IMG/VR virus record: IMGVR_UViG_3300032160_000774
Span: 1-30,095 of that record
DNA length: 30,095 bases
Source of the DNA: a virus
Strand: one strand, 5' to 3'
Shown: positions 1 through 20,370 of the stretch, in pieces
Position numbering within the stretch: position 1 is the first letter of the stretch
Layout: each line of letters starts with the position of its first letter
The notes under the pieces: model-generated
Seen by the model: only the letters and a program-made list of their open reading frames with translations
Told to the model about the DNA's origin: nothing
Database searches by the model: none
Made by a program: the position numbers and the translations under genes

Positions 1-8
1 CCGGCGTA

Positions 9-3000
9 ATGCAGGATGATGAACTGATGAGAATATGGCAGGGAGCGGCCAGCCTATCCGCCACCGACTTGGCAAACCACTTGTCGTGTAGTCATCTCAC
101 GACACTTGACCTCCGCCTCGCTAAAGGCGAGATAGCGGAACCCACGTGGGACAACCCCCATGCCGTCGTGCTCCAGCAGCGGGGTCTGGAACACGAGAAA
201 GCTTACATCGAATGGCTCCGGTCTAGGGGCCTTACTGTCGTTGATCTTTCGGACGAACCAGAGGCCGCGACCTGGGCGGCGATGGAGAGCGGGGCTCAGG
301 TGATAGTTCAGGCCAGCCTCGCGGGTGGCACCTGGAGAGGTCGCGCTGACGTGCTGCTCCGCGTCGAAAGACCGAGCCGCGCCAGCAATTGGTCGTACGA
401 AGCCGTGGATTGCAAGCTGTCCCGCGAAACGAAAGCGGAGACCGTTCTTCAACTGTGTCTGTATTCGCAATTCCTCGCGGAACTGCAAGGACTGGAGCCG
501 GAATTCTTCCACGTCATCCGGCCAGGCACTGGCTTCGAGCCGGAATCTTACCGGCTGGCGTCGTTCGCCGCGTATTACCGTCTAGTCAAACGGGCGCTGC
601 AGGAGGCGGTGGAAGCGGGCGCCGGCGAGACCTACCCCGAGCCGGTCGACCATTGCGATATCTGCCGCTGGTGGAAAGAATGCGACGGGCAGCGCCGCCG
701 GGACGATCATCTTTCCTTCGTGGCTGGCGCTTCCAGGCTACAGAGGAAGGAACTGACTTCGCGGGATGTTCCCACTCTGGAAGCCTTGGCCAGGCTGCCG
801 CTGCCGATTCCTTTCCGCCCCTCACGCGGGGCCGTCGAGGGGTACACGCGCATCCGGGAGCAGGCGCGGATTCAGCTTGAAGCGCGTACCGAAGGTGATC
901 TCAAATTTGAATTCCTCCAATGGGAAACGGGTGAGGGGCTCTCGCGCCTTCCCGTTCCATCACCGGGCGACATTTTTCTCGATTTCGAAGGCGATCCGTT
1001 CGTCGCGGACGGCGGCCTCGAATATCTCCTCGGCATGGTCACGGCAGGCGAAGGCGGCAACCTTGGTTATCAGTGCCGCTGGGCGCTCGATCGCGGCCAG
1101 GAGCGCGCGATGTTCGAATGGTTTATCGATTTCGCGTTCGACCAGCTGCAGCGGTTCCCGGATCTTCACATCTATCATTTCGGTACTTACGAACCGGGCG
1201 CGGTTAAACGCCTGACGCTGCGCTACGCCTCGCGTGAGGACGAGGTTGACCGGCTTTTGCGCGGCAAAATATTCGTCGATCTCCACGGAGTGATTAAGCA
1301 GGCACTCCGGGCCAGCGTGGAGCAGTATTCGCTGAAGGATATGGAAAGGTTTTGCGGCTTTAAGCGCAGGGTGCCGCTGCCGGAAGCGAGCCAGGCGCGA
1401 CATTTCTTGGAACATGAGCTAGAACTGAACACGTCGCCGGTACTCACCGAAGAATCACGCCGCATCGTTGAAGGGTATAACCAGGATGATTGCCTCGCGA
1501 CAGCCGAGCTGCGCAACTGGCTCGAAGGTCTCCGTGCTGAACGTGTTGCCGGCGGCATGGACGTCCCACGGCCCGAAGCGCAGGATATGGCGGCGAGCGA
1601 ACAGCTCACAGCCCACCAGCAGCGCGTCGCCGGGCTATTCGAGGCATTGACGCGCGATCTGCCGTCTGAACCGAAGGACCGCACGCCCGAGCAGGCGGCG
1701 CGGTGGTTGCTGGCTCACGCGCTCGACTGGCACCGGCGCGAGGAGAAGGTGAAGTGGTGGGAGTTCTTTCGGATGAAGGAGTTTTCCGACGAGGAACTCC
1801 TCGACGAAAAAACAGCGCTTACGGGACTGTCGCTCAGGCAGCGGATGCCAAAGATGAGTCCCAGGGAGCGCGCTCCGATTGATCAGTATCACTATCCCCC
1901 GCAGGAATGTTCCGTCAGGGTGCGCGACAAGCTCTATACGTTGGACGAGAATAAATTCGGCGACGTGGTTGCCGCGGACCCGCTTGCCCGGACCATCGAT
2001 GTGAAGAAACTCATCAAGCTCGATGGTCTTCACCCTGTGTCCGTGTTTGCGTACTCGCATTTTGGAACCGAGGAGCAGGCAAATTCTATTCTTCGGCTGG
2101 CGGAATGGATTGTGGCAAACGGTATCGATGGGCCGGGCGATTTCCGGGCCGCGCGGGATCTCCTACTGAGAAACCCGCCCCGGCTCACGGGAGGGCAGTC
2201 TATGGCCGTGAGGGTCAATGAAACGATCGTGGACGTAGCCCGCAGGCTCGGAGTGGCGCTCGACCATTCCGTGCTTCCTATCCAGGGGCCTCCGGGCGCG
2301 GGCAAGACTTTCTCTGGCGCGCGTATGATCTGCGAGCTGGTGAACGCCGGAGAGAGGGTCGGGATCACCGCCGTGGGACACAAGGTCATCCGCAAGCTGC
2401 TCGACGACGTGGTTAAAGCGGCCCGCAAGCTGAATATCGCTGGCGTGTCGTGCGCGCACAGAATGGAGGGGGATGGCTCCGCGAACGGACCCGTTCGCGA
2501 GGTGGGGACGAATGATGAAGCCCTGCACGATTTACAGGGCGGCGCCATAAACGTGCTCGGCGCTACTTCGTGGCTCTGGTCGCGCGCGGATTTCATGGAT
2601 TCGGCGGACGTGCTGTTTGTCGACGAGGCGGGGCAGATGTCGCTGGCGAATGTGCTGGCCTGCGCACCGGCCGGAAAGAGCCTCGTCTTGCTGGGCGATC
2701 CGCAGCAATTGGAGCAGCCGCAGAAGGGGAGCCATCCGGAAGGCTCAGACATTTCAGCACTGGCGCATCTGCTGGCTGGCAGGCGAACCATCGGTGAAAC
2801 GCAGGGCCTCTTTCTCCCCGAAACCTGGCGGCTTCACCCGGCCATCTGCGATTTCACATCGGAACTGTTTTATGAAGGGCGGCTATTCTCGCTTGCCGGT
2901 CTGGAGCGGCAGAATATTGAAGCCCCGGCGCCGTTCTCCGGGGCCGGCTTGTGGTTCGTGCCGGTGACCCATGAAGGCAATCAGAGCCACTCGGCAGAAG

Positions 3001-3458
3001 AAGTCGAGCGCGTCGCCGGCATCGTCGAATTCCTCACCCAGGACGGCACAGGATGGGTTGACCACGACGGAGATCGGCGCCCACTCACCCGTGATGACAT
3101 CCTGATCGTGGCTCCGTACAACGACCAGGTAAATCGGCTGAAGGATCGGCTGCCTGGCGCAAAGGTGGGAACGGTCGATAAGTTTCAAGGGCAGGAAGCA
3201 GCCGTGGTTATCTACACCATGACAACTTCGACGCCCGAGGACGCACCGCGCGGCATGGAATTTCTCTACAATCTTCACCGATTCAACGTCGCCACTTCGC
3301 GGGCGCGAGCCGCATGTATCGTAGTCGGCAGTCCGAGTCTTTTTTCGCCGGAATGCCGCACGCCTCGACAGATGGAGCTTGCAAACGTGCTGTGCCGCTA
3401 TGCCGAGATGAGCCAGGCCGTGGCGTTCGGCGTCGGGGCTGCGGGCGACGTCCACTAA
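9..3458 (+). CDS. RecB-like nuclease / RNase H-like / DNA2-type helicase fusion protein
   Basis: The protein is 1149 aa with three parts visible in order. The N-terminus is a RecB-like nuclease of the TM0106 type, with VDCK near residue 133, a QLCLYSQ helix shortly after, and a cysteine cluster HCDIC..KEC near 215-225 that could hold metal or iron-sulfur. The middle is a predicted RNase H/YprB-like exonuclease, with DFEGDP near 324 and YNQDDC near 495. The C-terminus is a superfamily 1 helicase of the DNA2/NAM7 group: Walker A GPPGAGKT near 760, DEAGQ near 872, GDPQQLEQP, DKFQGQE near 1057 and a C-terminal NVATSRARA. The family is expected to unwind and cut nucleic acid. The reading frame is open to the window edge and the ATG at 9 has no clear ribosome binding site, so the true start may lie upstream. 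The GHKL ATPase follows on the same strand 123 bp later. Confidence 0.9.
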   Translation: MQDDELMRIWQGAASLSATDLANHLSCSHLTTLDLRLAKGEIAEPTWDNPHAVVLQQRGLEHEKAYIEWLRSRGLTVVDLSDEPEAATWAAMESGAQVIVQASLAGGTWRGRADVLLRVERPSRASNWSYEAVDCKLSRETKAETVLQLCLYSQFLAELQGLEPEFFHVIRPGTGFEPESYRLASFAAYYRLVKRALQEAVEAGAGETYPEPVDHCDICRWWKECDGQRRRDDHLSFVAGASRLQRKELTSRDVPTLEALARLPLPIPFRPSRGAVEGYTRIREQARIQLEARTEGDLKFEFLQWETGEGLSRLPVPSPGDIFLDFEGDPFVADGGLEYLLGMVTAGEGGNLGYQCRWALDRGQERAMFEWFIDFAFDQLQRFPDLHIYHFGTYEPGAVKRLTLRYASREDEVDRLLRGKIFVDLHGVIKQALRASVEQYSLKDMERFCGFKRRVPLPEASQARHFLEHELELNTSPVLTEESRRIVEGYNQDDCLATAELRNWLEGLRAERVAGGMDVPRPEAQDMAASEQLTAHQQRVAGLFEALTRDLPSEPKDRTPEQAARWLLAHALDWHRREEKVKWWEFFRMKEFSDEELLDEKTALTGLSLRQRMPKMSPRERAPIDQYHYPPQECSVRVRDKLYTLDENKFGDVVAADPLARTIDVKKLIKLDGLHPVSVFAYSHFGTEEQANSILRLAEWIVANGIDGPGDFRAARDLLLRNPPRLTGGQSMAVRVNETIVDVARRLGVALDHSVLPIQGPPGAGKTFSGARMICELVNAGERVGITAVGHKVIRKLLDDVVKAARKLNIAGVSCAHRMEGDGSANGPVREVGTNDEALHDLQGGAINVLGATSWLWSRADFMDSADVLFVDEAGQMSLANVLACAPAGKSLVLLGDPQQLEQPQKGSHPEGSDISALAHLLAGRRTIGETQGLFLPETWRLHPAICDFTSELFYEGRLFSLAGLERQNIEAPAPFSGAGLWFVPVTHEGNQSHSAEEVERVAGIVEFLTQDGTGWVDHDGDRRPLTRDDILIVAPYNDQVNRLKDRLPGAKVGTVDKFQGQEAAVVIYTMTTSTPEDAPRGMEFLYNLHRFNVATSRARAACIVVGSPSLFSPECRTPRQMELANVLCRYAEMSQAVAFGVGAAGDVH

Positions 3459-3516
3459 AAGACGGGAGCGTGGGGTTTATTTGTAACATCTGGCCGTTTT
3501 CGACCCCTATCCTTAT

Positions 3517-3535
3517 GAGAGCCCATAACGCTCTC
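3517..3535. promoter_or_regulatory. Small inverted repeat upstream of the GHKL gene
   Basis: GAGAGC (3517-3522) and GCTCTC (3530-3535) form a perfect 6-bp inverted repeat with a 7-nt spacer in the 123-bp gap before the GHKL gene. There is no T-run after it, so an operator or leader hairpin is more likely than a terminator. The gene start downstream has a good ribosome binding site (AAGGAG about 6 nt before ATG 3582). Confidence 0.3.
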
Positions 3536-3581
3536 GACTTCTGATCCCGAATAGCCGGGGTCACAAAACAAGGAGAACGAG

Positions 3582-5510
3582 ATGTTAGAGCAGAATACGC
3601 AGAGTATCCCCGACGGTGACGTTCAACCGCCCGTCGATCTTCTTCAAGGCCCCACATGGGGCGATGACGCGCCGCGCGGCGGCAAAGCGGTCCTGAACCG
3701 GATCATCAAGGAAAAGGCGACAGTCCCGCTCTTTTTCGGGCAAACCCTTATCAGCTCCCTTCGCGATGTGGGCTATAACAGCACCACGTCGGCGCTCTGT
3801 GAACACGTGGATAACGCGATACAGTGGGGCGCGACCGAGATCCGCGTTTATTTTCGCCAGAGCGGTAAACCGGGCGCCTATAAGACTGACGCGCTGGTGC
3901 TGGATAACGGCAGCGGAATGGCACCGAACATCCTCAGATTTGCTACGTCGTTCGGTGGCTCGATGGTTTTCGACAACCGCACCGGCATCGGACGCTACGG
4001 CATGGGCATGAAAACCGCGGCGCTCAGCATGTGTCCAGTGATGGACCTCTATTCCTGGCAGGAAGCGGGCGCGTATTACAACATGATCCTGGATGTTGAG
4101 GCGATCGGAAAAGAACGCGCAAACCTGATCGAGCTGCCGGACCCGACGCTTATGGACAAATTGCCCAGCGATATTTCGGACATGTTTATCAAACCCATGT
4201 CCTTCCCCGACAAGGGCGAGCAGACGCTTTTGGTTGAAAGCCCCGACGAACTGAAAGAGCGCCTTGGGAATTCCGGCACCATCGTTTATCTTCCGTCGTG
4301 CGACCGCCTTTCGTCGGCGAAGGCCCGCACGCTATGCGAGCAAGCGATGAAGGAGATGGCGCGTGTGTACCGGCGGTCTCTCGCGAAAGGCATAAAGCTG
4401 TACATCAACAACCGGCTGGTGGAGCCCTTCGATCCGACCTACTCGATGCTATCTGCCCGGCACAGCAAAATTCCAGAGATCAAGGTGAAGGAGAGCCGGC
4501 TGGTTTTTTCCAGGGTGATCGAGATAAAGCGGAGCGAAAACCACAAGCAGGACCCGGACAGCGTCGAAAAGGCCCCTGTAACGGTGCGGCTCTACGCCCT
4601 GCCGATCGAGGATTGGGGGTCGCTGCCGCTCAAGGTGCGCAAGAACGACCTGCATCTGTACGATGACAACACGATCTCGGTTTTGCGCAACGACAGGGAA
4701 GTGTTCATCGGCACGATACCGCAGATCATGAAGCGCCACAGCGATGCGAATTGGCTGCGCATCCAGATCGACTTCGGAGGCCTGCTTGACGAAGCTTTCG
4801 GTGTCGCGGCGAACAAGCAGGGCATCCGCCCCAAGGACTTCGTTCTTAAAGACCTCTCCGGCGTGCTGGATGCCGAAATCACAGCGCTCCGTGAGCAGAT
4901 CAAAAAGTTCCAGAGCGAGCAGACGGTCAGGGGCCACGGCAGCAGGCCTAGTGCGGGTGAGATGAAGGCCGACGAAGCGGAGCGCCGGCAAGCGAAGCCG
5001 ATGCCGGAACCGGCGCCGACGACGGAGGAGGAACAGCGTCAGCTCAATGAAAACCTGCGCAAGTTGGCGGTTATGCTCAAACGCGAGAAGGAGACTGATG
5101 ACGAGGCTTTCGAACGAGTACGGACGTCAAAGTACATCATCAACTTCAAGCACGATAAGTATTGGCCGTTCTACCATGTCGATCAGCGCTTTGGGAAAAT
5201 CATTCTGACCATCAATATGGCGCATCCATTTTACGAGCGCCTGTACGAGCCGCTCAGCCGCGCCGTGCTGGTGCTGGATACGCGCACGGCGGAGGGCGCT
5301 CCGGTCGTGGCCGAGGAGAGTGACGGCGAACCGCAGACGTTCAAGGGCGCTCGGGAAGCGTTGGTAGCGCTTCAACTGATGTTGCTTTCCCTAGCGCGGG
5401 CGCAAAGCTCGATGGCGCTGCAGGACCCGGAGCGTACGCAGACCTTCGATCTTCTTCGGAAGGAATGGTCTGATACCTACGAGACCCAGCTGGGCGCGGC
5501 GACGGTGTGA
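3582..5510 (+). CDS. GHKL-family ATPase (MutL/MORC/Hsp90-like), putative defence or DNA-processing protein
   Basis: The protein is 642 aa. The N-terminal Bergerat-fold ATPase is clear: N-box EHVDNAI at 74-80 (E74, D77, N78), DNGSGM at 108-113, and the lid loop GIGRYGMGMK at 135-144. A region resembling the S5-type second domain of MutL/MORC ATPases seems to follow (to about 430). A charged Glu/Lys-rich linker (about 455-520) leads to a C-terminal domain I do not recognise. GHKL ATPases of this type dimerise on ATP and act as DNA clamps or conformational switches, and prokaryotic MutL/MORC-like members are known beside restriction and helicase genes. The nuclease-helicase gene just upstream fits that association. 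The start is well supported by AAGGAG. Histidine kinase is unlikely because there is no dimerisation/phosphoacceptor domain and no sensor. Confidence 0.85.
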   Translation: MLEQNTQSIPDGDVQPPVDLLQGPTWGDDAPRGGKAVLNRIIKEKATVPLFFGQTLISSLRDVGYNSTTSALCEHVDNAIQWGATEIRVYFRQSGKPGAYKTDALVLDNGSGMAPNILRFATSFGGSMVFDNRTGIGRYGMGMKTAALSMCPVMDLYSWQEAGAYYNMILDVEAIGKERANLIELPDPTLMDKLPSDISDMFIKPMSFPDKGEQTLLVESPDELKERLGNSGTIVYLPSCDRLSSAKARTLCEQAMKEMARVYRRSLAKGIKLYINNRLVEPFDPTYSMLSARHSKIPEIKVKESRLVFSRVIEIKRSENHKQDPDSVEKAPVTVRLYALPIEDWGSLPLKVRKNDLHLYDDNTISVLRNDREVFIGTIPQIMKRHSDANWLRIQIDFGGLLDEAFGVAANKQGIRPKDFVLKDLSGVLDAEITALREQIKKFQSEQTVRGHGSRPSAGEMKADEAERRQAKPMPEPAPTTEEEQRQLNENLRKLAVMLKREKETDDEAFERVRTSKYIINFKHDKYWPFYHVDQRFGKIILTINMAHPFYERLYEPLSRAVLVLDTRTAEGAPVVAEESDGEPQTFKGAREALVALQLMLLSLARAQSSMALQDPERTQTFDLLRKEWSDTYETQLGAATV

Positions 5511-5549: not shown

Positions 5550-5741
5550 CACGTCGCGTAACGTTCAGCACTTTTCGACTACAATATAGAGAGGGCTAGT
5601 TTCAGCCATCCATTGGCGGCCGGCAACGGCTTCGATCCGAGCACAGCGCTTCGGTTCGGGGTTCGGCGGCGAGTGGGGAAGTTGATCTGGACCTTGACCA
5701 TCGCGGTGATCGACAGCGATCCCGACAGAAGGAGATGTGTT

Positions 5742-6194
5742 ATGGCTGATTTGCCATTTCCGTGGTGCATTTATGCGGAGCACCAAACGAAGGCCGCGGC
5801 GTGCGGCCGGATAAACGACCGGTCCTGGGGTATCGAGAACGGTCTGACCAACTTCCTGACAGCTGTCGAATCCGGCAGCATTCCCAACCAAGAAGAATTT
5901 CAGCGCGGCGTAAACAGGGCGGTGGCCACCGGCTCCTGGGTTGAGCGGAACCATGCCCGGCTGCGGCGCATGTACCTCCGGCCGCAACACCACCATGCCG
6001 AACAGCGGGTGCTGGCCCGCGTTCGCCTGGCCGAGATCCGCGACAACGTGAGCCCGGCCGAGTGGACCCTGCTGATGGCGGTGGCGGCCGGCGTGGCTTA
6101 TCCCGAAATGACCGGGACCACGGCGGGCGGCGCCCGGACGAGGGTTGCACGGCTGCGGGCGCGCCTGCGCCCGGCGGGAAAGGAGCGGCCGTAA
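5742..6194 (+). CDS. Small protein with a C-terminal sigma-region-4-like helix-turn-helix
   Basis: The protein is 150 aa from ATG 5742, chosen because AAGGAG lies 7 nt upstream; the frame is open further upstream but has no comparable signal there. The last 45 residues (from about 105: SPAEWTLLMAVAAGVAYPEM, then TRVARLRARLR) have the spacing and basic final helix of region 4 of ECF sigma factors, so DNA binding is likely. The first 100 residues match nothing I recognise and show no sigma region 2, so this is probably a regulator or adaptor rather than a full sigma factor. It is followed 16 nt later by the MBL-fold gene, so the two are probably co-transcribed. It may control its own operon. 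Confidence 0.7.
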   Translation: MADLPFPWCIYAEHQTKAAACGRINDRSWGIENGLTNFLTAVESGSIPNQEEFQRGVNRAVATGSWVERNHARLRRMYLRPQHHHAEQRVLARVRLAEIRDNVSPAEWTLLMAVAAGVAYPEMTGTTAGGARTRVARLRARLRPAGKERP

Positions 6195-6210
6195 GGCCGG
6201 GAGAACCTCT

Positions 6211-7326
6211 ATGAACTGCGAAGTGGAATTTCTCCCTGTCGGCGATGGCTGCAAGGCTGGAGACGCCATTGTCATCAGATACGGCGACGCCAACAACTAC
6301 GAAATCATGGTCATGGACGGCGGCAACCTGGATTCCGGGAAGGCCGTCGTCAGCCATATTCAAAACAATTTCGGCTACAACGCTGTCGTCACCCACGCCG
6401 TGGTGACGCATCCCGATGCCGACCACGCATCAGGCATGCGGGAAGTGCTGGCCGGCCTGACGGTGAAAAATCTGTGGCTGCATAAGCCGTGGGAATTCGC
6501 GGCGGCGTCGCGGCCGTACTTCGCCAACAAGACCTGGACCGATCAGGGCCTCGCGCAGGCGCTTCGCAAGGAGTACGACATCATCAGCGAGCTGGTGGAC
6601 ACGGCTGAGAAAGACAAGGTCGCCGTCCAGCAGCCGTTCGCGGGCATGTGCATTGGTCCGTTCCGGGTGGTTTCTCCATATCGAAACGTCTATCCGTTGT
6701 TCATACCGCAGTTCGACCGCACGGCTGATGCCGACGAGGAGGCGATTAAGGCAGCCGGCTTCTGGGTCGGGAAAGCTCCGGGTTTGCTCGCGCAGCTGTT
6801 CGAGAAGGCGGCTGCGAAGGTCCAGAAGTGGATTGATGAGAGCTGGGAAAACGAACGACTGAAGGACGGCGGTTGCACGAGCGCCAGCAACGAAACCAGC
6901 GTCGTTCTGTACGGCGACTTCGGGCCCGGCCGCCGTGTGCTCCTGACCGGAGACACCGGGATTTGGGGGCTGTCGATGGTGGAGCATTACGCGCAGAACA
7001 ACGGCCTGGCGTTACAGGATTTCATGCTGGTGCAGGTGCCCCACCATGGAAGCCGGCGGAACGTCGGGCCGACAATCCTGAACAGCATCCTCGGCCCGAT
7101 CAAGCCGAACGGCACCCTGCCGCATTCACAGGCATACGTATCCGCGCCGAAGGATGACGACACGCATCCCCGCAAGATGGTGCTCAACGCATTCATGCGC
7201 CGCGGCTATAAGGTTGCCGCCACTCAGGGCAACAAGATCGTATATTGGGGCGGTTTCCCCGCGCGCCCGGGTTATGGTCCGCTGACCATGCTGCCGTTCG
7301 CCACGCAGGTGGAGGACTATGATTAG
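6211..7326 (+). CDS. ComEC/Rec2-type metallo-beta-lactamase-fold hydrolase
   Basis: The protein is 371 aa from ATG 6211, behind GGGAG. The metal-binding signature THPDADH (HPDADH at 67-72) is the HxDxDH form typical of ComEC-type MBL domains. Later come LLTGDTG and VPHHGS, the other conserved ComEC blocks. There are no membrane segments, so this is a stand-alone soluble MBL domain rather than a DNA uptake channel. The family contains nucleases and other hydrolases, and the substrate here cannot be told from sequence. The region between the motifs (about 80-230) is longer than in a minimal MBL fold. The stop overlaps the start of the membrane protein gene by 8 bp, so the two proteins are probably made together and may interact. 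Confidence 0.88.
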   Translation: MNCEVEFLPVGDGCKAGDAIVIRYGDANNYEIMVMDGGNLDSGKAVVSHIQNNFGYNAVVTHAVVTHPDADHASGMREVLAGLTVKNLWLHKPWEFAAASRPYFANKTWTDQGLAQALRKEYDIISELVDTAEKDKVAVQQPFAGMCIGPFRVVSPYRNVYPLFIPQFDRTADADEEAIKAAGFWVGKAPGLLAQLFEKAAAKVQKWIDESWENERLKDGGCTSASNETSVVLYGDFGPGRRVLLTGDTGIWGLSMVEHYAQNNGLALQDFMLVQVPHHGSRRNVGPTILNSILGPIKPNGTLPHSQAYVSAPKDDDTHPRKMVLNAFMRRGYKVAATQGNKIVYWGGFPARPGYGPLTMLPFATQVEDYD

Positions 7327-8074
7327 CGCGAGCGGGGCGGAGGCTACGCCACGCGGCGAAACCGGGAAGTCGCTGAAGGACCAGTATCGCTGGCAGCTCT
7401 GGATCATCGTCGCCGTCAACACGCTCTTTTTGTACGGGGTGGTGCAGGCGAACGCGATCAAGGTCGACGGGCTGCGCGCCATCTTCACGGACGCGCAGAA
7501 CCTGCTTCCGGTCGGGGTGGCGCTGATCGTGGCGACGGTGTTGAACGGCCTCCTCAGCGCCGACGCCAAGGCCCGCGTGGTTTTCTTTCGCTGGCACCAT
7601 GCGCTGCCCGGACATCGCGCATTCAGCGAGTATGCCGTGCGCGATCCGCGCATCGATGTCGCGGCGCTCGAGAAAATCCACGGCGGCCCATTGCCGACCG
7701 ATGCCGTGGAGCAGAACCGGACGTGGTACCGGATGTATAAGTCTATCGAAAACGATCCGGCCGTCCGGCAGGCGCATCGCGACTACCTTTTCATGCGCGA
7801 TTACACCGGCCTGTGCGCGGTGTTCATCGCCCTATACGGCGCGGCGGCCATGTTCACTATTCCGTCGATGAGGGTCCGCCTGACGTACCTGGTGGTTCTC
7901 GCCGCGCAGTTCGTGCTGGTGCGGCAGGCTGCCTGCAATTACGGAATCCGGTTTGTCACGACGGTCCTCGCCCGGAAAACCGGGAAGGAAGTGCCCGCCG
8001 CGAAGCCGCCGAAAGCCACGAAACCGCGGGCGCGAAAGCCCAAGGCGGATGCTGCGAGTGATGCCGGGGCGTGA
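7319..8074 (+). CDS. Protein with four predicted membrane segments, coupled to the MBL gene
   Basis: The protein is 251 aa. Two hydrophobic helices lie near the N-terminus (about 27-46 and 60-80), then about 80 soluble residues rich in charge and aromatics, then two more helices (about 163-183 and 185-205). A very basic, Ala/Pro/Lys-rich tail ends the protein (last 35 residues). The start ATG lies inside the end of the MBL gene (8-bp overlap), which points to translational coupling. The 2+2 helix layout with a helical linker recalls pore-forming effectors in bacterial conflict systems, but I see no family signature, so an effector role is only a suggestion. This is the last gene of the + strand block and is convergent with the phage genes. 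Confidence 0.75.
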   Translation: MISASGAEATPRGETGKSLKDQYRWQLWIIVAVNTLFLYGVVQANAIKVDGLRAIFTDAQNLLPVGVALIVATVLNGLLSADAKARVVFFRWHHALPGHRAFSEYAVRDPRIDVAALEKIHGGPLPTDAVEQNRTWYRMYKSIENDPAVRQAHRDYLFMRDYTGLCAVFIALYGAAAMFTIPSMRVRLTYLVVLAAQFVLVRQAACNYGIRFVTTVLARKTGKEVPAAKPPKATKPRARKPKADAASDAGA

Positions 8075-8306
8075 GGATGGCTGAAAACGCCAACGCCTTG
8101 CCCGGAATTTTACGCGCCTGTGCGTTCTTCTGACCCACGGGCTTAACCACCGTCAAAAGGGGCGGGCCGCGTCCTGCGTCCTTCTAATGGCGTAATAGAG
8201 GCTTTTCAGCGGTGTGGTTTTCATAAGTGTGAGACTTGGCCCTGACGGTCGCTCTTGGGCTACGGCACGAACGACCGCATAAGCTCGTGGGTGAGAAAAA
8301 GGGGGG

Positions 8307-8861
8307 TCAGTGCTTGGTGGCGGCGCCGATGGAATCCGGCGGGTGAGGCCGCGGCCGCCACGCTTCGACCTGGCGGTGGATCTCGGGAAGGTCCTGCGGC
8401 CAGATATACTGCTGTGCCTGCTGCTGCAGGACGCGCTGGCCCTGCTCAGGGCTCCAGCGAGCCGCCACGGAAAGCCAGAAATAGGCGAGCGTGTGGTTTT
8501 GCCGGACGCCGAGGCCAATGAAGAAACAAAGGCCGATCATGAATTGCGCGCCGTCCTGACCACGCCTCGCGGCGTCAAGGAAGCGGTCCGCGGCGGCGGT
8601 GAGATTGACGGGCGTCCCGTGGCCGACAAGGAAGACGTGGCCGAGGATGCAATTGGCGAGGGGCTCGCCGGCATCTGCCTTTGCCTCCAGTACGGCGAGC
8701 GCTTGCGGGGTGTCGGGAATCTGGGTACGTGTGATGGTGCGGCGCGCGATGCCTGCGATTACTTCAGGGCTCCAGGGCAGCGGACACTGAGCTAAGAGCG
8801 GCCCAAGATCGCCGCCGTGGAGGGCGGCGGTCTGTAGATTGTTGTTCTGGTTGTCGGTCAT
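8307..8861 (-). CDS. Sel1-like (TPR-type) repeat protein at the end of the phage late block
   Basis: The protein is 184 aa from ATG 8861; a TTG start at 8894 in the same frame would add 11 residues, and neither has a strong ribosome binding site. Residues about 60-140 hold two Sel1-like repeats with alpha/alpha spacing (AKADAGEPLANCILGHVF, AARRGQDGAQFMIGLCFF, then a third helix pair AYFWLSVAAR). Sel1 repeats are protein-protein scaffolds. No signal peptide is seen. It follows the 70-aa gene by 45 bp on the same strand, where T7-like phages would carry late lysis or packaging genes, but its role is unknown. Confidence 0.7.
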   Translation of the reverse strand: MTDNQNNNLQTAALHGGDLGPLLAQCPLPWSPEVIAGIARRTITRTQIPDTPQALAVLEAKADAGEPLANCILGHVFLVGHGTPVNLTAAADRFLDAARRGQDGAQFMIGLCFFIGLGVRQNHTLAYFWLSVAARWSPEQGQRVLQQQAQQYIWPQDLPEIHRQVEAWRPRPHPPDSIGAATKH

Positions 8862-8906
8862 CGGGTCGATCTTCGTCAGTGTGAAGTTTTGCAAGGTTGG
8901 GCGGGG

Positions 8907-9119
8907 TCAGTCCGCAACGGGCTGAGCCGCGGGCGCAGCAGGCGACACTGCCGCTCGGGGCCGCGTGCGCCCTTGACCGCGCTTTGCGGGTGCAGGCGGG
9001 CTGTATGCCAGGACGACATCCGCGCCAGCGAAGGCGCCAGCACCCTTGCCGGCGCGGCTGAATGTGGGATACCCGAACGCATAAGCGGGCGGGCAGATGG
9101 TCACTTTCGGTTGCACCAT
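8907..9119 (-). CDS. Small Ala/Pro-rich phage protein of unknown function
   Basis: The protein is 70 aa from ATG 9119, preferred because GGAG lies about 9 nt upstream. The longer frame from 9206 would add 29 residues and overlap the terminase gene by 26 nt. The N-terminal part (VTICPPAYAFGYPTFSRAGKG) is compact, and the C-terminal half is low-complexity Ala/Pro/Arg. No domain is recognised. It sits between the terminase small subunit and the Sel1-repeat gene. Confidence 0.55.
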   Translation of the reverse strand: MVQPKVTICPPAYAFGYPTFSRAGKGAGAFAGADVVLAYSPPAPAKRGQGRTRPRAAVSPAAPAAQPVAD

Positions 9120-9180
9120 GGTGGCTAACTCCAATGTGAAGGATGGGCCGATATCGTAAGAGCGGGCCCGGTCCGGTTGT

Positions 9181-9870
9181 TTATTTCTCAGCGCCGCCAT
9201 CATCACCTGCTGGCGGTAACGGTGACTTCTCGACGGGCTCGCCGCCCTGAGCTGGTGGCTGGTTGTTCGGCGTGTTCCGCGGCGGGTCCCGCAACGCCGC
9301 GTCCATGCCCCTGGCCAGCAAGTACGCTATTCGGCGCGCGACGTCTAAGTCTGACATGGTCACGGTTTCATCGGCATCTTCACTCCCAGGTTCGGTGTCG
9401 GGCTCGAACATCCCCAGGTGCTGCATCAGGCTGCGGTTGGCGGCGTTCTTATCCCAGAGCGTCAGCGTGAACGAGCGTATCTCGCGCGGCTCGACGCTGC
9501 TGTCTTCGTCTATGCGTTCGGGCTCGTGGATGCCGAACGACCTGATCGCCTTCGTCATGTGTGGGGTTTTTAGAAGATTGAGGCGCGGCCTGCCGTCCTC
9601 GTCGAAATCAAGGAAGTCCGAGATGTCGCTATAGGCGATGACCGCCTGATGTTCCAGCGTGCGCTCGACAGTCACCTGGGCCTTCGCAAGGCCCTTGTCG
9701 GTTCTATCCCGAATTATTTTCTTAATCTCGACGTTCTTCAGCAGCCTTGAGGCTATGGCGTATGCGGTTTTTTTTGAGTAGCCAGCTTTGATCGCTGCAT
9801 TCGCCCCATGGCCCTGGTTCGCGAGGTACTCCTCTACGAATTTCAGCTGCTTCGGCGTGAGCTTTCCCAT
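9181..9870 (-). CDS. terS: Phage terminase small subunit
   Basis: The protein is 229 aa. The first 55 residues are the classic terminase small-subunit DNA-binding domain: LTPKQLKFVEEYLAN, AAIKAGYSKKTAYAIASRLLKN, IKKII. The middle (VIAYSDISDFLDFDEDGRP) also fits the family. The C-terminus is a disordered Pro/Gly/Glu tail. TerS recognises phage DNA at the packaging site and hands it to the large ATPase/nuclease subunit. The start ATG 9870 is preceded by CGGAG about 9 nt upstream and lies 18 nt after the 2186-aa gene stop. No large terminase gene follows, although in T7-like phages it normally would. Confidence 0.9.
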   Translation of the reverse strand: MGKLTPKQLKFVEEYLANQGHGANAAIKAGYSKKTAYAIASRLLKNVEIKKIIRDRTDKGLAKAQVTVERTLEHQAVIAYSDISDFLDFDEDGRPRLNLLKTPHMTKAIRSFGIHEPERIDEDSSVEPREIRSFTLTLWDKNAANRSLMQHLGMFEPDTEPGSEDADETVTMSDLDVARRIAYLLARGMDAALRDPPRNTPNNQPPAQGGEPVEKSPLPPAGDDGGAEK

Positions 9871-9888
9871 TCCTTAAACTCCGTTCGC

Positions 9889-12800
9889 CTATTCCTTCGG
9901 CCGCGGGCCGCCGACGACGCCGCGCATGAAGTCGGCAGGGCCGGTGGGATGTTCCTTGCCCTGCTCGACGTCGTAAAGGTAATTCGCTGTCTTCTGCACC
10001 TGCGTGACCGGAACCTGCAGGGCGTAGCCAAGATCCTCGATGACGTCATCCATGGCCTTCCTGGCGCTGCCGCCTGGCTTAAACGCCTTGTAGATATCGG
10101 TTGGCGTGTCGATGAGGACTGTGTTCATGAAGTCTTTGAGCGCGCCGCCGAATACCACGCTGTCGTTGTAATGCTTGCTTTCGAACTTGTTGACGATGAC
10201 GCTCGCGATGTCGCCCCCGAAGGGGACCATGCCCGCCAAGTATTGGAAGGGCGCCGCGACGAGATTATCGAGCCAGTATTTCTCCGGGTCCTGCCCCTGC
10301 GGCGTCCCGCCGCGCGCGGCCATGGAAACGGCCTTGGCGCAGATGGCGGGCAGCACGGCGGCCATCATGGTCAGATACAGGCGCGCGAATCCCTTTCCGG
10401 CCATGCCGCGGTCGGATTTCCCGATCTGGTTCCAGTTGTCATACAGGAGGTTGCCCTGCGTGTTCATGATGCCGTAGAAGATCGTCCCCAGTTTCCAGAG
10501 ACCGCCGCGGGCCTCGATCTCGCTCGCGTGCTCGGGGTGGAACGAGCCCTGCGTCATGCGCACGCGCTGCTCGGCGTATTCGCGGACCTGCTGATCGTTC
10601 TCCAGGTCGATGCCCTTGATCTCGCCAGCCTCGGCCGCCCGGCGCGCATTGAGGTACTGCCAGTCGTCAAGCCAGGAGTGCGTCGCGTGCTGGACGATGT
10701 AGGCGTAGTCCTGCATGACGTCCGTGATGCGCCGCCCGATATTGCGGTTCTCAAGCAGCCGTCGGATGGCCTGCATGTGGTTCTCGTCGGCAGTGATATT
10801 CCGCTGCCGCATGAAGGCACTTTCCTCGCGGATATCTTTATGGATTTCCCCGCGGTTGAGCATGAGGTCGATGGCCGTGCCGATCGAGCGCCCGAAGCCT
10901 TCGCCTTCGCCCGTGGCGATGCTGACGAAGGGCTGCGCGAAGCGCTGCGCCATGTACACGGGGTTGAAGCCGAGCGCCTGAAGCTGGGTCTGCCGGCGCA
11001 GGTAATTCACGCCGTCGTTGAGCAGCATGTTCTTCGACTTGTCGCGGCCCATGCTCATGCTTTGCCGCACGGTTCGCTGCAGCCACGGGATAAGCAGGCT
11101 GCCGCGCGATGTCGGGTTGATGCGCGCCAGTGCATCGGTGAACTCGCGGTCAAAGACGATCTTGGCGACCTGCTTGATGACGGGCTCGATCGTTGTATAA
11201 CGGGCCGTCCAGTCGAGATGCATCGGAAGGTTGAGGATGTCCATCTCGAGGGGATAAGCGGCCTGCGCGACACGCTGCATCGTCGCGCCGCGCCCCGTCG
11301 TCGGAAACGCGAAATTGTTGTCCTCATTGACGAGCTGGTCGAACTGCTCTTTCTCATCGATCGCTGCGGTCTTGGTGCGGTCGGGCCGCGCGGGAGCATA
11401 GCCGCCCTTGTATTCTCCCCACGGGGTCTGGAAAGGCACGGCGGTGATTTCTGATGGATAATAGCCGCGCATGTCTCGGTGCGCTTTCCAGACGGCACCC
11501 TTTTGGGTATCGTAAAGGTCCCAGATTTTCTGAACGAGGTCCCAATCCGCCTTCGTGATGAGGCCGGTGCTATGCGCGCGCTTGAGGAAGGCCGTCAGAT
11601 CGTCCAGTTTCCAACTGTAGCCATTAAGCAGCTTGTAGCCGTTGGAGCCCGGCTCGAAACCGTTGCCGAGGTGAGACAGCATCCCGATAAGCTCGGCCTT
11701 GTTATCGAAGCGATAGCTACCGCCCGTCTTCTGCGAGACAAGCTCGGGTGCGGGTATTTCCTCGCCCGTGAGGTCCTCGCGGCGCGGCTCGAGGAGTTCG
11801 AGCGCCTGCTTGAGTAATGCGTTGCGGGTCTCCCGGTATTGCTCAACTGCGCGCTCGACTGGCTGGGATATATACCGCATGTGCGGGCCGCCCTGCTGGT
11901 GGCCGTCGAGGGCGAGCAGGAAGTTCTCGGCGCGGCGCAGCGATGACGCGGCATCCATGAGCGAGCGCTTGAACCGGGCGCCGCTCGGTATCTTCCCTTC
12001 CAGACCCGAGGGCAGGCCGGAGGCTGCCTGGTTCGCCATCAGGTCCGTCATTTCCTGCACCACCACGCGCTTCTCGAGGCGCTGCCCGGCTACCGTGATG
12101 GTCTTGATGTCCTGTCCGATGTGGATGAGACTGTCGATCTGATCGGCCAATCCCTGGAACTCATCGAAAGTCATCTCCTTGATCGGCTTGGCCAGCGCGA
12201 GGTTCGCGCTCTCGATGATGTCGCGCACGTCGTTCGCGGTCTCCGGGTCGTCTCGTAACACCCGCGCGAACCAGCCGTTGATATCGAATTTCCCGGAGCC
12301 GACGCCATGCGCGGCGAGGATGGCGCGCGCGGCGTTCACGAAATCTATGTTCATCGACTTGGCGAGCTTCTCGTCTGGCTTCAGGAGCTTCCTGCTCCAC
12401 AGCTCCAGCTTCTTCGCTTGCAACTCGCGCGCCTCGATGGCCATGGAATAAAGATGATGGTTCAGGAGCTGCCGTGCCTTCTCAATCGCGGCCTGCTCGA
12501 AATTGTTCTTGCCGAGAGCCTCGCCGGAACGGCGCGCGGCGGCAATCTCGGAACGGTAAAACACGGCCGGCGCGATCTTGCCCATCTGGCGGCCGCCGAT
12601 CACCTTACGGGCGTTGAGCTCGATGGATTGGCCCGATGGCGTCGGTATCTTAGCTGCCGCCGCGAGCTGCTTCATCTCCCATTCGAGCTGCGCGGCACGC
12701 ATGCCGTTGTGGTATGCCTCCACGGCCTGGCGTTCGATGGTGCCGTCCTTCAGCATGTCGCCGTGGCGGGAGAGCATCTCCTCATCAACCCTGCTGGCGA

Positions 12801-15800
12801 CGTAATCCTTGCGCGGCGCCATTTTCATGAAATCGTCCAGCATCTCGCGCGCGCTCGCGTAGCCGTGCAGGCCGGCAACCGGCGCGGGGTCGGCACCGTC
12901 CGCCTTGAACAGGCCCTTGTGTTGCTTCAGGCGGTCCAAGCCCTCGTTCGCGTAATCGCCGAAGGCTTTGCCGGTCTTCTTGCGGTCCAGCCCCTGCTCC
13001 ATAGCCATGCCGAGCGCCTGATAGCGCCGGTCCTGGCTTACGGCCTGCTCCACATCTGCGGCGATCTTCTCGCGTGCGTCCCGGTATTCCTGCGTGCCCG
13101 TGCGCTCTGACTCGCGCATGGCGTTGCGGAAGAGCTTTTCCGAGGCTGCCGCGGCAGCGCGGTCGGCCTTCCTGCGTGCCGTCTCGCGCTGCGCAGGGGT
13201 GAGATGCGACATGATGCGCGGGTCTATGGAGAATTGCGCCTCGCTCTTCAGCCGCGCGATTTCCTCGTCCGTGGCAAACATCCTGTCGAACACGTCTTTG
13301 ACGTGCGGGTTGATCGAGGGCAGCGTGTCCTTGATGCCGCCGTAGATGCGTGCGAGCCATGATTTAAACCGCTGAAATGCCGTGCGCACATCTGCGCTCG
13401 GGGCCTCGTTGTCCTTGAGGTAGCGCAGGAAGCCATCGGCGATCTTTTCCTCCTGCTCGGTGGTCAGCTCTTCACCCGCCTTGGTCCCGACCCACTCCCG
13501 GATCGCGTTGACATCGGCCCTGATCTGATCCGGGGCGTTGTCGAGCTTTGACAGCGCATCCAGCGCGTGCCAGTAAAGGTGGCCGTATTCATGCAGAACC
13601 GTCGAAAGATTTTCCTTCTCGAACAGGCGAATCAGCGGCGAGCCGTCCGGCGGGAAGGTTATGCTGCCGCGCGGGGTTTCAGTATCGCCATGGAAAAGCG
13701 TGTCTTTTCCGGAACCGTTGACGAAGTCCTTTTCCGTGAGTAACTTAGAAGATGAGCCTTGCCGCCCATCAACGGGCTTAATTGGCCTCCCCGAGGGATA
13801 TTGGTTCCCTCCAGTGCGAGGCTGGACAAGGCTCTTTTCCGTGTTCATGTAGAGCAATTCCCCGGCATCTGCTTTGGCCTGCAGCCGCTTCTGCGCATCC
13901 TTCAACCCGTAGACGCTTGCGATCATGTTCGCGCGGCGGACATTGCTGGGATAGATCGAGACAACAACCGGCTTGCCGTTTTCCTGCGCGTCGACCTGCA
14001 CGAGCAGGCTTTCACGGGGTTGGCCGTCTTTGTCTGCTCGCACTGATTTAAAGACAGCCACCGGATCGGCCAGCAACTGCGGCAGCCGCTCCAGCACTTC
14101 GACCGGGACCTCGTGAGCGACCTGCGTCACCTTCCGCGCGAAGTCCGCCTCCATGCGGATGGGCCAGTCTTTCCCGGCGCCGACGGCGGCGAGGATGTCG
14201 CCGGGCGTGCCCAGGTGCAGGGTATTACGGCCGGCGAGCTGCCTGCGCGCGAGTGCGTCCTTGAGATCGCGCTTGTAGCGCAGCAACAGTTCCGGCGTTA
14301 TTGGTTGCGTAAGCGTCGTGCCATCCTTGCGCGCGAGTTCATCGAGGTGCTGCTGCAGCGCTTCGCGCACCTGTTGATTGCTGGCCTTCGCGAGGTCGAC
14401 GCCTTGTCTGTCCAGCACGTTGAGCAACTGGTCTGCTGCCGCGCGGTGCTGCGCTTCGGCGTGGACCTGCTCCGGCGTGGGTTCCTCCGTGCGGGGTTTG
14501 CCCGCGCGGGCTTTGCCGCCGATGCGCTGCGCGTTTTCGATGGCCGCCTGCTGCCCTTCGAGCTTCTCCGTCTGCTGCGCCTGCTGGCCCATCTCGTTGC
14601 GGACGCGGTCGATAAAAAGGTCGAGCTGGTCGCCGCGGGCCTTCTCCGCGAGCGCGGGGCTCTCGCGCACGAACTGAAGGCCGCCGATCATGCGGTCGAT
14701 CACTTCTTTCACGCCGGGGGTCTGGCCGTATCTTTCCAGCATCACGCGCGAGAAATCCGCCGGGTTCTGCGCGAGGAGCCTGGCAATATCCGGCATGCCG
14801 GAGACGGCCGTGCGCTGCCCGTACTGCTGCAGGAGCTGGCGATAGATGTTCTCCGCGACGGGGTCTTCTTTTTCCTGCGCGTCGGTGAGCCCCTCGTGGA
14901 GATTGCTGACAAAAGCGTCATAGGCCTTCTCGTCGCCCTCGCTTGAGCCTTCGGGAACCCATTTCACCCACTGGTCTAGGTTCTTGGAGCCCTCGATCTG
15001 CTGGATGTAGGTGTGATAATCGGCTTGGTCGATCTGAAGATCTTCGCCCGTCTTCAGCGCCTCACCCAGGGACTTGCCAAATTCCGGCATGTTCTTGTCG
15101 AGGGCCCCGCGCTGCTCCGGCGTGAGCTTCTGGTAAAACGTCTGCGCTGCTCCCGGGTTGATGTAGATATCCCGGTCGCCGAGTTCCGAGCGCAGGAACT
15201 CATTCATCTTTTCGGGCGCGCGGCCCTGAAGCTTACTCTCCTGCACGACGATGCGCCCGCGGTCCATCTGTTCGCGGCGGTATTCGTTCATGAGCGGCTG
15301 AAAGTTCATATTCGTGTTATGGAAGAGAAGTCCGGCGATAAGACCGATGAAGCCGCCCTGGTCGACGGAATCGGATAGCCCCTGCGTCAGGCTCACATCC
15401 TCCCCCAGGACATTCCGGCTGATCGCGTTCTGCGCGACCGTTTGCCCGGCCATCGCCGTGGCATCCGACACCGTGCGCAGCGTGGCGTCTGCGGCGCGGT
15501 AAGCCAGGCGCGCGGCCGTGCCGCCCGGGTCGATACCGGCTCGCATCATGAACCCGGAGATCGTATTGCTGACGGTGTTTTGCAGCGATGCCGGCAGGCC
15601 CTTGGCGACAACTTCCGGGCCGAGCTTGCCCGTGACGGCCGCGACGAGCGCGCTCAGCGCGGCGGCTGTGTTCGCCTGCGGACTGTTTTCATCGAAGCCC
15701 TGCTTTTTGGCTTCCTCATAGGATTGCCCCGCGAACTGCGCCATGAAACCCGGCACGATGCCGACGGGGTTCGCCGCGGCGCCCAGCATGCCGCCCGCCA

Positions 15801-16449
15801 TGCGCGCCACGCCGGGGAAAAAGCCCTGGTTCTGGTTGTCGATTTTCTCGCCTGCTTCAGCGACCTGCTCGCCGGTGGAGGCCCCCACCATGCCGATGTC
15901 ATGCAGCGCGACGCTGCCCGATTTCAGCAGGAACTGGTCGACGGCGTCCATGCCGGGATGCGGGGCCTGCAAATAGGTATCCAGGCCCTCGCCAGCATTC
16001 TCGACGGCCTGGAAGAACCCGTGATAGGCCTGCCCCGCGCCGTGCACCGTGGCCGCGGCGAGGTTCTGCGCGATGGCGCTGAGGTCGTAATGGTCATCTA
16101 CGAGGCTGCGCGCCCAGTCGGATACTTTGGTGAGGCGGCCGACATCGTCATGCGCCAGCGCGGCGTTCTCATCGTTAGACAGGAACTGCGAGAGCTGCGG
16201 ATACTGCTTGATAAGCTGGTCGAACGGAACCGCATTGAACTGCGCGTCCTTCTGCAATCGGCCCTGGTTGCGCACGGCCATGTCGAGCGGGATGCCGTTG
16301 GCCTGCGCGAGCGGGAGGGCTTTCGCGGCCGCGTCGGGCGATGGCGCCATAGCCTGCCCGGACATGATGCCGGCGCGCAGGGTCTCGTTCTGCGTGTCGT
16401 ACATCTGGTCGAGGCTTTTATTGACCTCGTCGGGGGTGATATCGGCCAT
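9889..16449 (-). CDS. Giant phage ejection/polyvalent protein with HEYGH zincin motif (T7 gp16 position)
   Basis: The protein is 2186 aa, almost a quarter of the window. The N-terminal 400 residues include Gly/Ala-rich hydrophobic stretches (about 215-245). Around 744-845 is a MuF-C/LPD3-like module (LPQLLADPVAVFKS, GKPVVVSIYP, IASVYG). HEYGH at 953-957 is a zinc metallopeptidase motif. Residues 1100-2000 are mostly long helices. A hydrophobic segment near 2022-2043 lies in an LPD38-like C-terminal region. Such large polyvalent proteins are packed in virions and enter the host with the DNA. Gene order (gp14-like, transglycosylase, this, TerS) places it where T7 has its largest ejection proteins. 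The start overlaps the upstream stop by one base (TAATG). The domain names come from recognition by eye; the coding frame itself is certain. Confidence 0.88.
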   Translation of the reverse strand: MADITPDEVNKSLDQMYDTQNETLRAGIMSGQAMAPSPDAAAKALPLAQANGIPLDMAVRNQGRLQKDAQFNAVPFDQLIKQYPQLSQFLSNDENAALAHDDVGRLTKVSDWARSLVDDHYDLSAIAQNLAAATVHGAGQAYHGFFQAVENAGEGLDTYLQAPHPGMDAVDQFLLKSGSVALHDIGMVGASTGEQVAEAGEKIDNQNQGFFPGVARMAGGMLGAAANPVGIVPGFMAQFAGQSYEEAKKQGFDENSPQANTAAALSALVAAVTGKLGPEVVAKGLPASLQNTVSNTISGFMMRAGIDPGGTAARLAYRAADATLRTVSDATAMAGQTVAQNAISRNVLGEDVSLTQGLSDSVDQGGFIGLIAGLLFHNTNMNFQPLMNEYRREQMDRGRIVVQESKLQGRAPEKMNEFLRSELGDRDIYINPGAAQTFYQKLTPEQRGALDKNMPEFGKSLGEALKTGEDLQIDQADYHTYIQQIEGSKNLDQWVKWVPEGSSEGDEKAYDAFVSNLHEGLTDAQEKEDPVAENIYRQLLQQYGQRTAVSGMPDIARLLAQNPADFSRVMLERYGQTPGVKEVIDRMIGGLQFVRESPALAEKARGDQLDLFIDRVRNEMGQQAQQTEKLEGQQAAIENAQRIGGKARAGKPRTEEPTPEQVHAEAQHRAAADQLLNVLDRQGVDLAKASNQQVREALQQHLDELARKDGTTLTQPITPELLLRYKRDLKDALARRQLAGRNTLHLGTPGDILAAVGAGKDWPIRMEADFARKVTQVAHEVPVEVLERLPQLLADPVAVFKSVRADKDGQPRESLLVQVDAQENGKPVVVSIYPSNVRRANMIASVYGLKDAQKRLQAKADAGELLYMNTEKSLVQPRTGGNQYPSGRPIKPVDGRQGSSSKLLTEKDFVNGSGKDTLFHGDTETPRGSITFPPDGSPLIRLFEKENLSTVLHEYGHLYWHALDALSKLDNAPDQIRADVNAIREWVGTKAGEELTTEQEEKIADGFLRYLKDNEAPSADVRTAFQRFKSWLARIYGGIKDTLPSINPHVKDVFDRMFATDEEIARLKSEAQFSIDPRIMSHLTPAQRETARRKADRAAAAASEKLFRNAMRESERTGTQEYRDAREKIAADVEQAVSQDRRYQALGMAMEQGLDRKKTGKAFGDYANEGLDRLKQHKGLFKADGADPAPVAGLHGYASAREMLDDFMKMAPRKDYVASRVDEEMLSRHGDMLKDGTIERQAVEAYHNGMRAAQLEWEMKQLAAAAKIPTPSGQSIELNARKVIGGRQMGKIAPAVFYRSEIAAARRSGEALGKNNFEQAAIEKARQLLNHHLYSMAIEARELQAKKLELWSRKLLKPDEKLAKSMNIDFVNAARAILAAHGVGSGKFDINGWFARVLRDDPETANDVRDIIESANLALAKPIKEMTFDEFQGLADQIDSLIHIGQDIKTITVAGQRLEKRVVVQEMTDLMANQAASGLPSGLEGKIPSGARFKRSLMDAASSLRRAENFLLALDGHQQGGPHMRYISQPVERAVEQYRETRNALLKQALELLEPRREDLTGEEIPAPELVSQKTGGSYRFDNKAELIGMLSHLGNGFEPGSNGYKLLNGYSWKLDDLTAFLKRAHSTGLITKADWDLVQKIWDLYDTQKGAVWKAHRDMRGYYPSEITAVPFQTPWGEYKGGYAPARPDRTKTAAIDEKEQFDQLVNEDNNFAFPTTGRGATMQRVAQAAYPLEMDILNLPMHLDWTARYTTIEPVIKQVAKIVFDREFTDALARINPTSRGSLLIPWLQRTVRQSMSMGRDKSKNMLLNDGVNYLRRQTQLQALGFNPVYMAQRFAQPFVSIATGEGEGFGRSIGTAIDLMLNRGEIHKDIREESAFMRQRNITADENHMQAIRRLLENRNIGRRITDVMQDYAYIVQHATHSWLDDWQYLNARRAAEAGEIKGIDLENDQQVREYAEQRVRMTQGSFHPEHASEIEARGGLWKLGTIFYGIMNTQGNLLYDNWNQIGKSDRGMAGKGFARLYLTMMAAVLPAICAKAVSMAARGGTPQGQDPEKYWLDNLVAAPFQYLAGMVPFGGDIASVIVNKFESKHYNDSVVFGGALKDFMNTVLIDTPTDIYKAFKPGGSARKAMDDVIEDLGYALQVPVTQVQKTANYLYDVEQGKEHPTGPADFMRGVVGGPRPKE

Positions 16450-19321: not shown

Positions 19322-19330
19322 GCGAATACC

Positions 19331-19603
19331 TCACTGATGAGTGTTGGCAATTGCGCCATTACGGGGGCCTCCGTGATTTGATTTCAAGCCCTGCTCCTGC
19401 ACGGGCGCGGCAGATGCATCTGGGGGGACGTAAGGCGGGAGAGCGGCCAGCCAGGCCTCGATGGCTTCGGCCGGCACTACGGTCCTGCGGCCGAATTTCT
19501 TGACCTTCAGGCGGCCGGTGTTGAGCTCTTCGTAGAATTTGCCGAGGCCGATGCCCCCCATCTGCTTGCGGGCTTCCGGAACGGAAAACGCGATCTTCGA
19601 CAT
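19331..19603 (-). CDS. Excisionase-like small HTH DNA-binding protein
   Basis: The protein is 90 aa from ATG 19603, chosen because AGAGGAAG lies just upstream; the frame runs open to 19825 but that part reads as noncoding. The core (FSVPEARKQMGGIGLGKFYEELNTGRLKVKKFGRRTVV, then EAIEAWLAAL) is the MerR-like winged helix of the excisionase/AlpA family. Such proteins bend DNA for excision or act as small transcription switches. It sits 9 bp upstream of the ejection block, so it could control late genes as well as excision. A 14-bp palindrome lies about 100 bp upstream. Confidence 0.8.
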   Translation of the reverse strand: MSKIAFSVPEARKQMGGIGLGKFYEELNTGRLKVKKFGRRTVVPAEAIEAWLAALPPYVPPDASAAPVQEQGLKSNHGGPRNGAIANTHQ

Positions 19604-19701
19604 GTTCGGCTTCCTCTGGTTGGTCCGGGTTGTGGGGGAAAGAGGGAGAACGCCAGCAGCAATTTCACTTTGCTGGAAGGGGGCTGCTGCGTCAAGAACA
19701 A

Positions 19702-20344: not shown

Positions 20345-20370
20345 GCTTCCGTGGAGGGGCTTGCTGTTCT

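Follow-up and report, generated by a model that had tools for sequence, protein, structure and literature searches.

Which gene is the partner of the GHKL ATPase encoded in IMG/VR virus record IMGVR_UViG_3300032160_000774, and what might the two do together? The window, by which we mean the whole 30,095-nucleotide stretch analyzed, carries this gene inside a run of co-directional cargo genes that adjoins a terminase small subunit gene. An earlier sequence-only reading had joined the ATPase to the nuclease-helicase gene that precedes it and proposed a DNA-sensing and degrading pair. Comparison with related loci identifies a different gene: the true conserved partner is the open reading frame (ORF) that we call ORF3, on the side away from the helicase. 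The real unit is best read as a mobile two-gene cassette in which a paraMORC-like GHKL ATPase is followed by a protein with a helix-turn-helix (HTH) of the sigma-70 region 4 type (sigma4), each gene having its own leader. Dozens of defense systems are known, and we know of few of the switches that control them; if our reading is true, a compact mobile ATPase-HTH cassette placed on varied defense genes, with a covarying leader hairpin, would be a new and testable type of defense controller. The features that define the cassette in the window are these:

3582–5510, plus strand: GHKL (paraMORC/MutL-like) ATPase of 642 amino acids, core gene of the cassette (HATPase_c_3, E = 2e-17)
5631–5660, plus strand: conserved RNA hairpin with an 11-bp stem and the loop CACAGCG at 5642–5648 (covariation, covariance-model search)
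5742–6194, plus strand: ORF3, a 150-amino-acid protein with a sigma-70 region 4-like HTH

An ORF3-type gene (~140–150 amino acids) lies on the same strand, 190–293 bp 3' of the GHKL gene, in all nine loci with an intact GHKL gene: the window and loci L002, L003, L004, L005, L007, L008, L023 and L056, with GHKL identities from 83% down to 49%. The L003 contig ends inside ORF3; L006, whose GHKL gene is broken, and G1033, whose contig ends inside GHKL, were not counted. The broken copy in L006 (5850–6629) covers residues 1–270 only and has an intact leader. The nine loci span Acidobacteria and Proteobacteria and are located on chromosomes, a plasmid and two viral contigs. The ninth, L056 (49% identity), came from a later and wider search, after the hypothesis had been formed; its ORF3 was missed by BLAST and is matched to the ORF3 family by hhalign (91%, E = 9e-7). 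The pair is rare: four draws of 396, 385, 257 and 398 genomes, seeds included, contained it in 2, 1, 2 and 2 genomes, respectively. Its presence in a second virus record, L007, shows the cassette to be repeatedly phage-borne; there, within 1–4677, a large serine recombinase gene flanks it on one side and tail-like genes on the other.

What, then, is the relation of the ATPase to the gene on its other side?

9–3458, plus strand: fusion of a TM0106-family RecB-like nuclease, an RNase H-like domain and a superfamily 1 (SF1) helicase, 1149 amino acids, outside the cassette (TIGR03491)

The gene pair on which the sequence-only reading was built is real, since both ORFs are complete, lie on the same strand and are separated by 123 bp. 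The domain calls hold as well, because domain matches and motifs give a nuclease/RNase H-like/SF1 helicase fusion followed by a GHKL ATPase. At 248.6 bits against TIGR03491 (curated cut-off 97.45), the 9–3458 product is a member of the NCBI TM0106 RecB-like nuclease family. Its RecB/Cas4-type nuclease part has the motifs GRADV at 111, DCK at 134, QLCLY at 148 and CDIC at 216, its RNase_H_2 domain occupies residues 322–505 (E = 1e-14, DFEGD at 325), and its helicase part matches AAA_12 (E = 5e-26) with GPPGAGKT at 760 and DEA at 872. The proposed partnership draws on the short co-directional spacing and on the frequent placement of MORC-type ATPases beside superfamily 2 (SF2) helicases and nucleases (PMC2292703). 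However, the window helicase belongs to SF1 and not SF2, and the adjacency is never seen in relatives of either gene: the TM0106-family gene is absent from the loci of all GHKL relatives examined, and a close GHKL relative accompanies it in none of eight helicase loci (seven plasmid loci and one viral contig, most of them screened directly). Moreover, DNA homology with L002, L003, L006 and L023 starts at window position 3482/3483, 25 bp past the helicase stop, so that its boundary falls between the two genes. The neighborhood survey that the sequence-only reading had called for thus found helicase and GHKL homologs mostly apart. A DNA-degrading pair of these two proteins is highly improbable, and their adjacency in the window is a chance neighborhood.

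Relatives of the helicase gene occur on 236 plasmids. In L032, a Sphingobium plasmid, the region 5974–13013 holds the gene in a row with genes annotated as DNA repair exonuclease and AAA ATPase (SbcD/SbcC-like by annotation); a divergent WYL regulator precedes this row, and L033 has a comparable set in altered orientation. This gene set is possibly a distinct defense or repair operon. A GHKL protein encoded 14 kb away in L033 is distant (24% identity) and belongs to another system.

The cassette ATPase contains all four ATP-site motifs (EHVDNA at 74, DNGSGM at 108, GIGRYGMGMK at 135 and GTIV at 232), which are invariant in its relatives, and full-length relatives were found at 83, 78, 67, 58, 56, 56 and 49% identity. 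GHKL ATPases of this class alternate between open and ATP-closed dimers. By profile, the closest solved structure is human MORC2 (E = 1e-3). The C-terminus, which the sequence-only reading had called unfamiliar, recurs in many annotated plasmid "ATP-binding proteins" at ~25% identity over residues 48–629. A candidate for the MORC GhXhhpXXRhl stretch, chosen by eye, is TISVLRNDREV, which is without the G and without the hydrophobic residue after R. Domain scans detected no nuclease or toxin domain in either the GHKL or the ORF3 proteins. Distant GHKL genes on the plasmids L011 (Leisingera) and L035 (Roseivivax) are each followed by a DruA-like/DUF4338 gene; a gene annotated as a sigma-70 factor adjoins the L035 locus on the opposite strand, and a sigma factor gene is located near the GHKL gene of L036 (Vibrio).

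Judged from its sequence, the ORF3 product is of a DNA-binding type: it has a sigma-region-4-like HTH and lacks a recognizable sigma region 2. This assignment is based on the C-terminus of the L056 protein, which matches Sigma70_r4_2 (E = 3.6e-4) with a score below the Pfam curated cut-off, and on a six-member ORF3 profile whose matches among solved structures are sigma factors and LuxR-type regulators (best sigma factor 5uxx, E = 2e-4). A longer ORF3 frame beginning at 5613 was rejected because its upstream part is frame-shifted in L002.

The gap between the two genes holds a further conserved element. In eight of the nine loci it contains a hairpin of ~11 pairs with an identical CACAGCG loop, the next base being T or C. 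Across seven loci, two-sided changes are observed in 8 of 11 pairs, with 14 compensatory cells. None of 500 shuffles reaches the score, which falls from 0.65 to at most 0.41 when the partners are displaced by one column. When L056 is added, a locus that had no part in the discovery of the hairpin, two-sided changes extend to 9 of 11 pairs with 19 compensatory cells, again with 0 of 500 shuffles. A covariance model of the hairpin, R1, finds a single copy scoring 40 bits or more in the window and in each of five host genomes, always at the GHKL-ORF3 site, and matches elsewhere in the six cassette-bearing records score ~22 bits or less. These searches reject a genome-wide host element as the identity of the hairpin. 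The copy in G1183 reaches 22.6 bits (E = 1.8e-6 across 601 bp), and its weight rests on position and exact loop only, because unrelated sites in that genome score up to 23 bits. In L007 the loop is altered to CACAAAG, the stem is weak and R1 finds nothing. Rfam gave no match at gathering score in the window; the best sub-threshold match has an E-value of 7. A small ORF in the gap was also rejected, since all frames contain stops and no reading frame is common to the loci.

Is this hairpin part of a regulatory leader, or a separate element such as a small RNA gene, a transcription terminator or a recombination site? The second view is possible but doubtful. Its appeal is that the hairpin lies in a gap of ~200–300 nt, away from the ORF3 start codon, and that covariation cannot separate RNA from single-stranded DNA. 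However, no U-run follows the hairpin, and the likely terminator is elsewhere, namely a GC-rich terminator-like hairpin directly 3' of the GHKL stop in L004, L005, L007 and L008. A recombination site or repeat is likewise disfavored, because each module has a single copy and nothing elsewhere scores similarly.

Each gene of the cassette is preceded by further leader elements, which in the window are as follows:

3483–3511, plus strand: promoter-like motif GTAAC-N18-CCTATC, at the left boundary of the block common to relatives
3517–3535, plus strand: GHKL leader hairpin 1 (GAGAGC...GCTCTC), with TGAG..CTC kept in close relatives
3543–3562, plus strand: GHKL leader hairpin 2, loop AATAGC, followed by CACAAAAC and the ribosome-binding site (pairing statistics)
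5558–5586, plus strand: second promoter-like motif, GTAAC-N18-ACAATA, 5' of ORF3, with a similar motif in relatives
5704–5724, plus strand: hairpin just 5' of the ORF3 ribosome-binding site, followed by ACAGAAGGAG; loop ACAG in the window and AACAGC in L002 (folding)

The GTAAC motif is invariant in nine GHKL leaders, ~100 bases 5' of the start codon, and a motif of the same type is located upstream of ORF3 in five loci (the window, L002, L003, L023 and L007) and not in L004, L005 or L008. The GTAAC motifs may be promoters; no sigma-70 consensus was found at the motif of the GHKL leader (3483–3511). Hairpin 1 has weak support in the distant loci and is not upheld there. For hairpin 2, 92.8% of cells are paired, two pairs have two-sided changes and 8 of 500 shuffles reach the score; its loop is AACAGC in most relatives and CACAGCG in L056. 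It resembles the ORF3-leader hairpin and is less well supported. The hairpin before the ORF3 ribosome-binding site is predicted by folding in most loci and is suggestive only.

What does the cassette accompany? Two genes follow ORF3 in the window:

6211–7326, plus strand: ComEC-like metallo-beta-lactamase-fold (MBL) protein, PADLOC candidate PDC-M48B (E = 1.3e-89), with THPDADH and HHGS motifs
7319–8074, plus strand: membrane protein with ~4 transmembrane (TM) segments by eye, overlapping the MBL gene by 8 bp, no family match

The MBL gene comes after ORF3 in both the window and L002. In other loci the same-strand genes after the cassette differ: a DUF4917 gene in L008 (PDC-S21, E = 8e-118), E2-E1 and JAB genes in L004, and in L023 an E1 gene with a gene for what we take, from its sequence, to be a multi-ubiquitin-like protein. 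The next gene begins after a 17-bp gap in the window, with a 1-bp overlap in L008 and after ~70 bp in L023, and this tight spacing suggests co-transcription with effectors. The wider surroundings bear out the defense context proposed by the sequence-only reading, with BREX genes in L023 (PglZ, E = 4e-99; BrxL, E = 5e-277), a DUF1156 methylase and an SNF2 helicase in L004, and a type III restriction-type helicase, an Mrr-like nuclease and a methyltransferase-domain protein in L056, whose gene content suggests a Dnd-like island.

Could the four genes form one abortive-infection system, with GHKL as sensor, ORF3 as regulator, the MBL protein as the enzyme that processes a signal or a nucleic acid, and the membrane protein as the component that kills the cell? 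The window and L002 (81% DNA identity over 4.57 kb) agree in gene order and in the spacings of 17 bp and -8 bp, and the MBL-TM pair is also found together on Bradyrhizobium and Burkholderia plasmids. However, the four genes occur together in only these two related loci, MBL-TM stands without GHKL-ORF3 in L009 and L010, and GHKL-ORF3 stands without MBL-TM in L004, L005, L007, L008, L023 and L056, which makes a four-gene system improbable. In Burkholderia the pair adjoins a ThiF/JAB protein gene and a second MBL gene. One relative of the membrane protein weakly resembles a 2TM CBASS effector (E = 1e-3), and none of the libraries searched gives the family a name. Among viral contigs, the MBL query found no relative and the membrane-protein query returned short fragments only.

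The simplest reading is that the cassette is a sensor-regulator that controls itself and the defense genes attached to it, because the partner is of a DNA-binding type, no nuclease is present and the downstream genes change. We give it a probability of about 50%. The GHKL dimer would sense infection or abnormal DNA in an ATP-driven manner and would change the state of the ORF3 HTH protein, which in turn would regulate transcription of the cassette and the attached defense genes, here the MBL and membrane-protein pair, while the CACAGCG hairpin in the ORF3 leader would add a second, RNA-level control. The conserved gene order, the varied downstream defense genes, the ORF3 HTH, the invariant GHKL motifs and the covarying hairpin all support this reading. 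Several observations weigh against it. No same-strand defense gene follows the pair in L005, L007 or L056, and therefore control of downstream genes cannot be the sole role of the cassette. Sigma70_r2, the sigma region 2 model, had no match in the six ORF3 members scanned or in L056. The ORF3 AlphaFold model is moderate, with a predicted local distance difference test (pLDDT) score of 72, and its top Foldseek matches are sigma factors, none significant; the GHKL model (pLDDT 40) is unusable. Finally, the neighbors may be a coincidence, as defense islands gather unrelated systems, and anti-phage activity is putative.

The main alternative is that the GHKL-ORF3 pair is a stand-alone anti-phage effector and its neighbors are independent systems, with ORF3 binding DNA and loading GHKL, which would clamp and compact or silence phage DNA as eukaryotic MORCs do. 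The three loci without an attached defense gene fit this alternative, as do the likeness of the ATPase to MORC2 and the occurrence of the pair on two viral contigs and one plasmid. However, neither protein has a detectable nuclease or toxin domain, and the close spacing to downstream genes in three loci speaks for effectors transcribed with the cassette; we regard a stand-alone effector as somewhat unlikely. A more speculative form of the sensor-regulator reading, which we consider rather unlikely, makes the hairpin itself the sensing part: a cassette component or phage product would recognize CACAGCG and release translation of the sigma4-like regulator, arming interchangeable effectors (MBL-TM, DUF4917 or ubiquitin-like operons). 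If true, this would be an RNA-gated, GHKL-driven switch serving many defense systems.

Elsewhere in the window, a podovirus-like gene block occupies the minus strand at 9181–22959 and encodes a terminase small subunit, a 2186-residue protein, an SLT-domain protein (endolysin-type PHROG), an internal virion protein, a replication O-like protein and a DnaB helicase. No capsid, portal or large terminase gene was identified among the subset of window ORFs scanned. Read from their sequences, 25084–25653 would encode a serine recombinase/invertase-like protein and 27991–28815 an adenine-type DNA methyltransferase-like one.

How does the cassette compare with known systems? The sequence-only reading had set it apart from Mza, and correctly so: membership is rejected because the MzaB match scores 49.9 bits where the cut-off is 850 and covers only residues 57–174 in the GHKL ATPase region, and the cargo-region proteins have no domains or PADLOC matches for Z1, AIPR or other Mza partners. 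VcSduA, an anti-phage Shedu protein with a GHKL N-terminus (PMC12137116), shares the GHKL ATPase, but no Shedu or other nuclease domain was detected in the cassette GHKL. Of the two downstream proteins, the MBL protein matches the PADLOC candidate PDC-M48B and the membrane protein has no match among the PADLOC models; our literature search found no paper naming PDC-M48. A closer parallel is offered by CapK (GHKL) and CapS (DNA-binding), which stand upstream of diverse immune operons, ubiquitin-like ones included, and turn these operons on after DNA damage (PMC13373217). The cassette likewise combines a GHKL protein with one of a DNA-binding type and is found next to diverse immune operons, some of them ubiquitin-like. 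However, CapK is HTH-STAS-GHKL and CapS is STAS-winged HTH (PMC13373217), whereas the cassette GHKL is MORC/MutL-like with 642 residues and ORF3 is sigma4-like, its alignment showing no conserved Ser/Thr/His. No STAS domain match was found in GHKL or ORF3, so the cassette is not of the CapK-CapS family.

The nearest relatives are the prokaryotic MORC/paraMORC ATPases, known since 2008 as components of restriction systems that also contain SF2 helicases and nucleases (Iyer et al. 2008, PMC2292703). The cassette GHKL resembles them in its four GHKL motifs, its C-terminal extension, its place among defense genes and, likely, an S5-type middle region. Distant GHKL relatives (25% identity) also occur in Dnd-like islands, together with DEAD helicase and PLD genes. 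In contrast to the paraMORC pattern, the constant partner of the cassette is a sigma4-HTH protein and not an SF2 helicase or endonuclease, and a covarying RNA hairpin lies 5' of the partner gene; the portion of the 2008 paper considered here describes no such pair. The SF2 helicase/endonuclease operon typical of MORC/paraMORC is not in the window, where the helicase is SF1, nor in L002, L005, L007 or L023, and in L004 and L056 SF2 helicases are adjacent but not constant with the pair. A limited literature search found no report of a GHKL and sigma4-like HTH gene pair or of this hairpin, and the novelty of the GHKL-ORF3 cassette and its hairpin is likely, although not proved. If our reading is true, the uncharacterized paraMORC ATPases would gain a defined partner.

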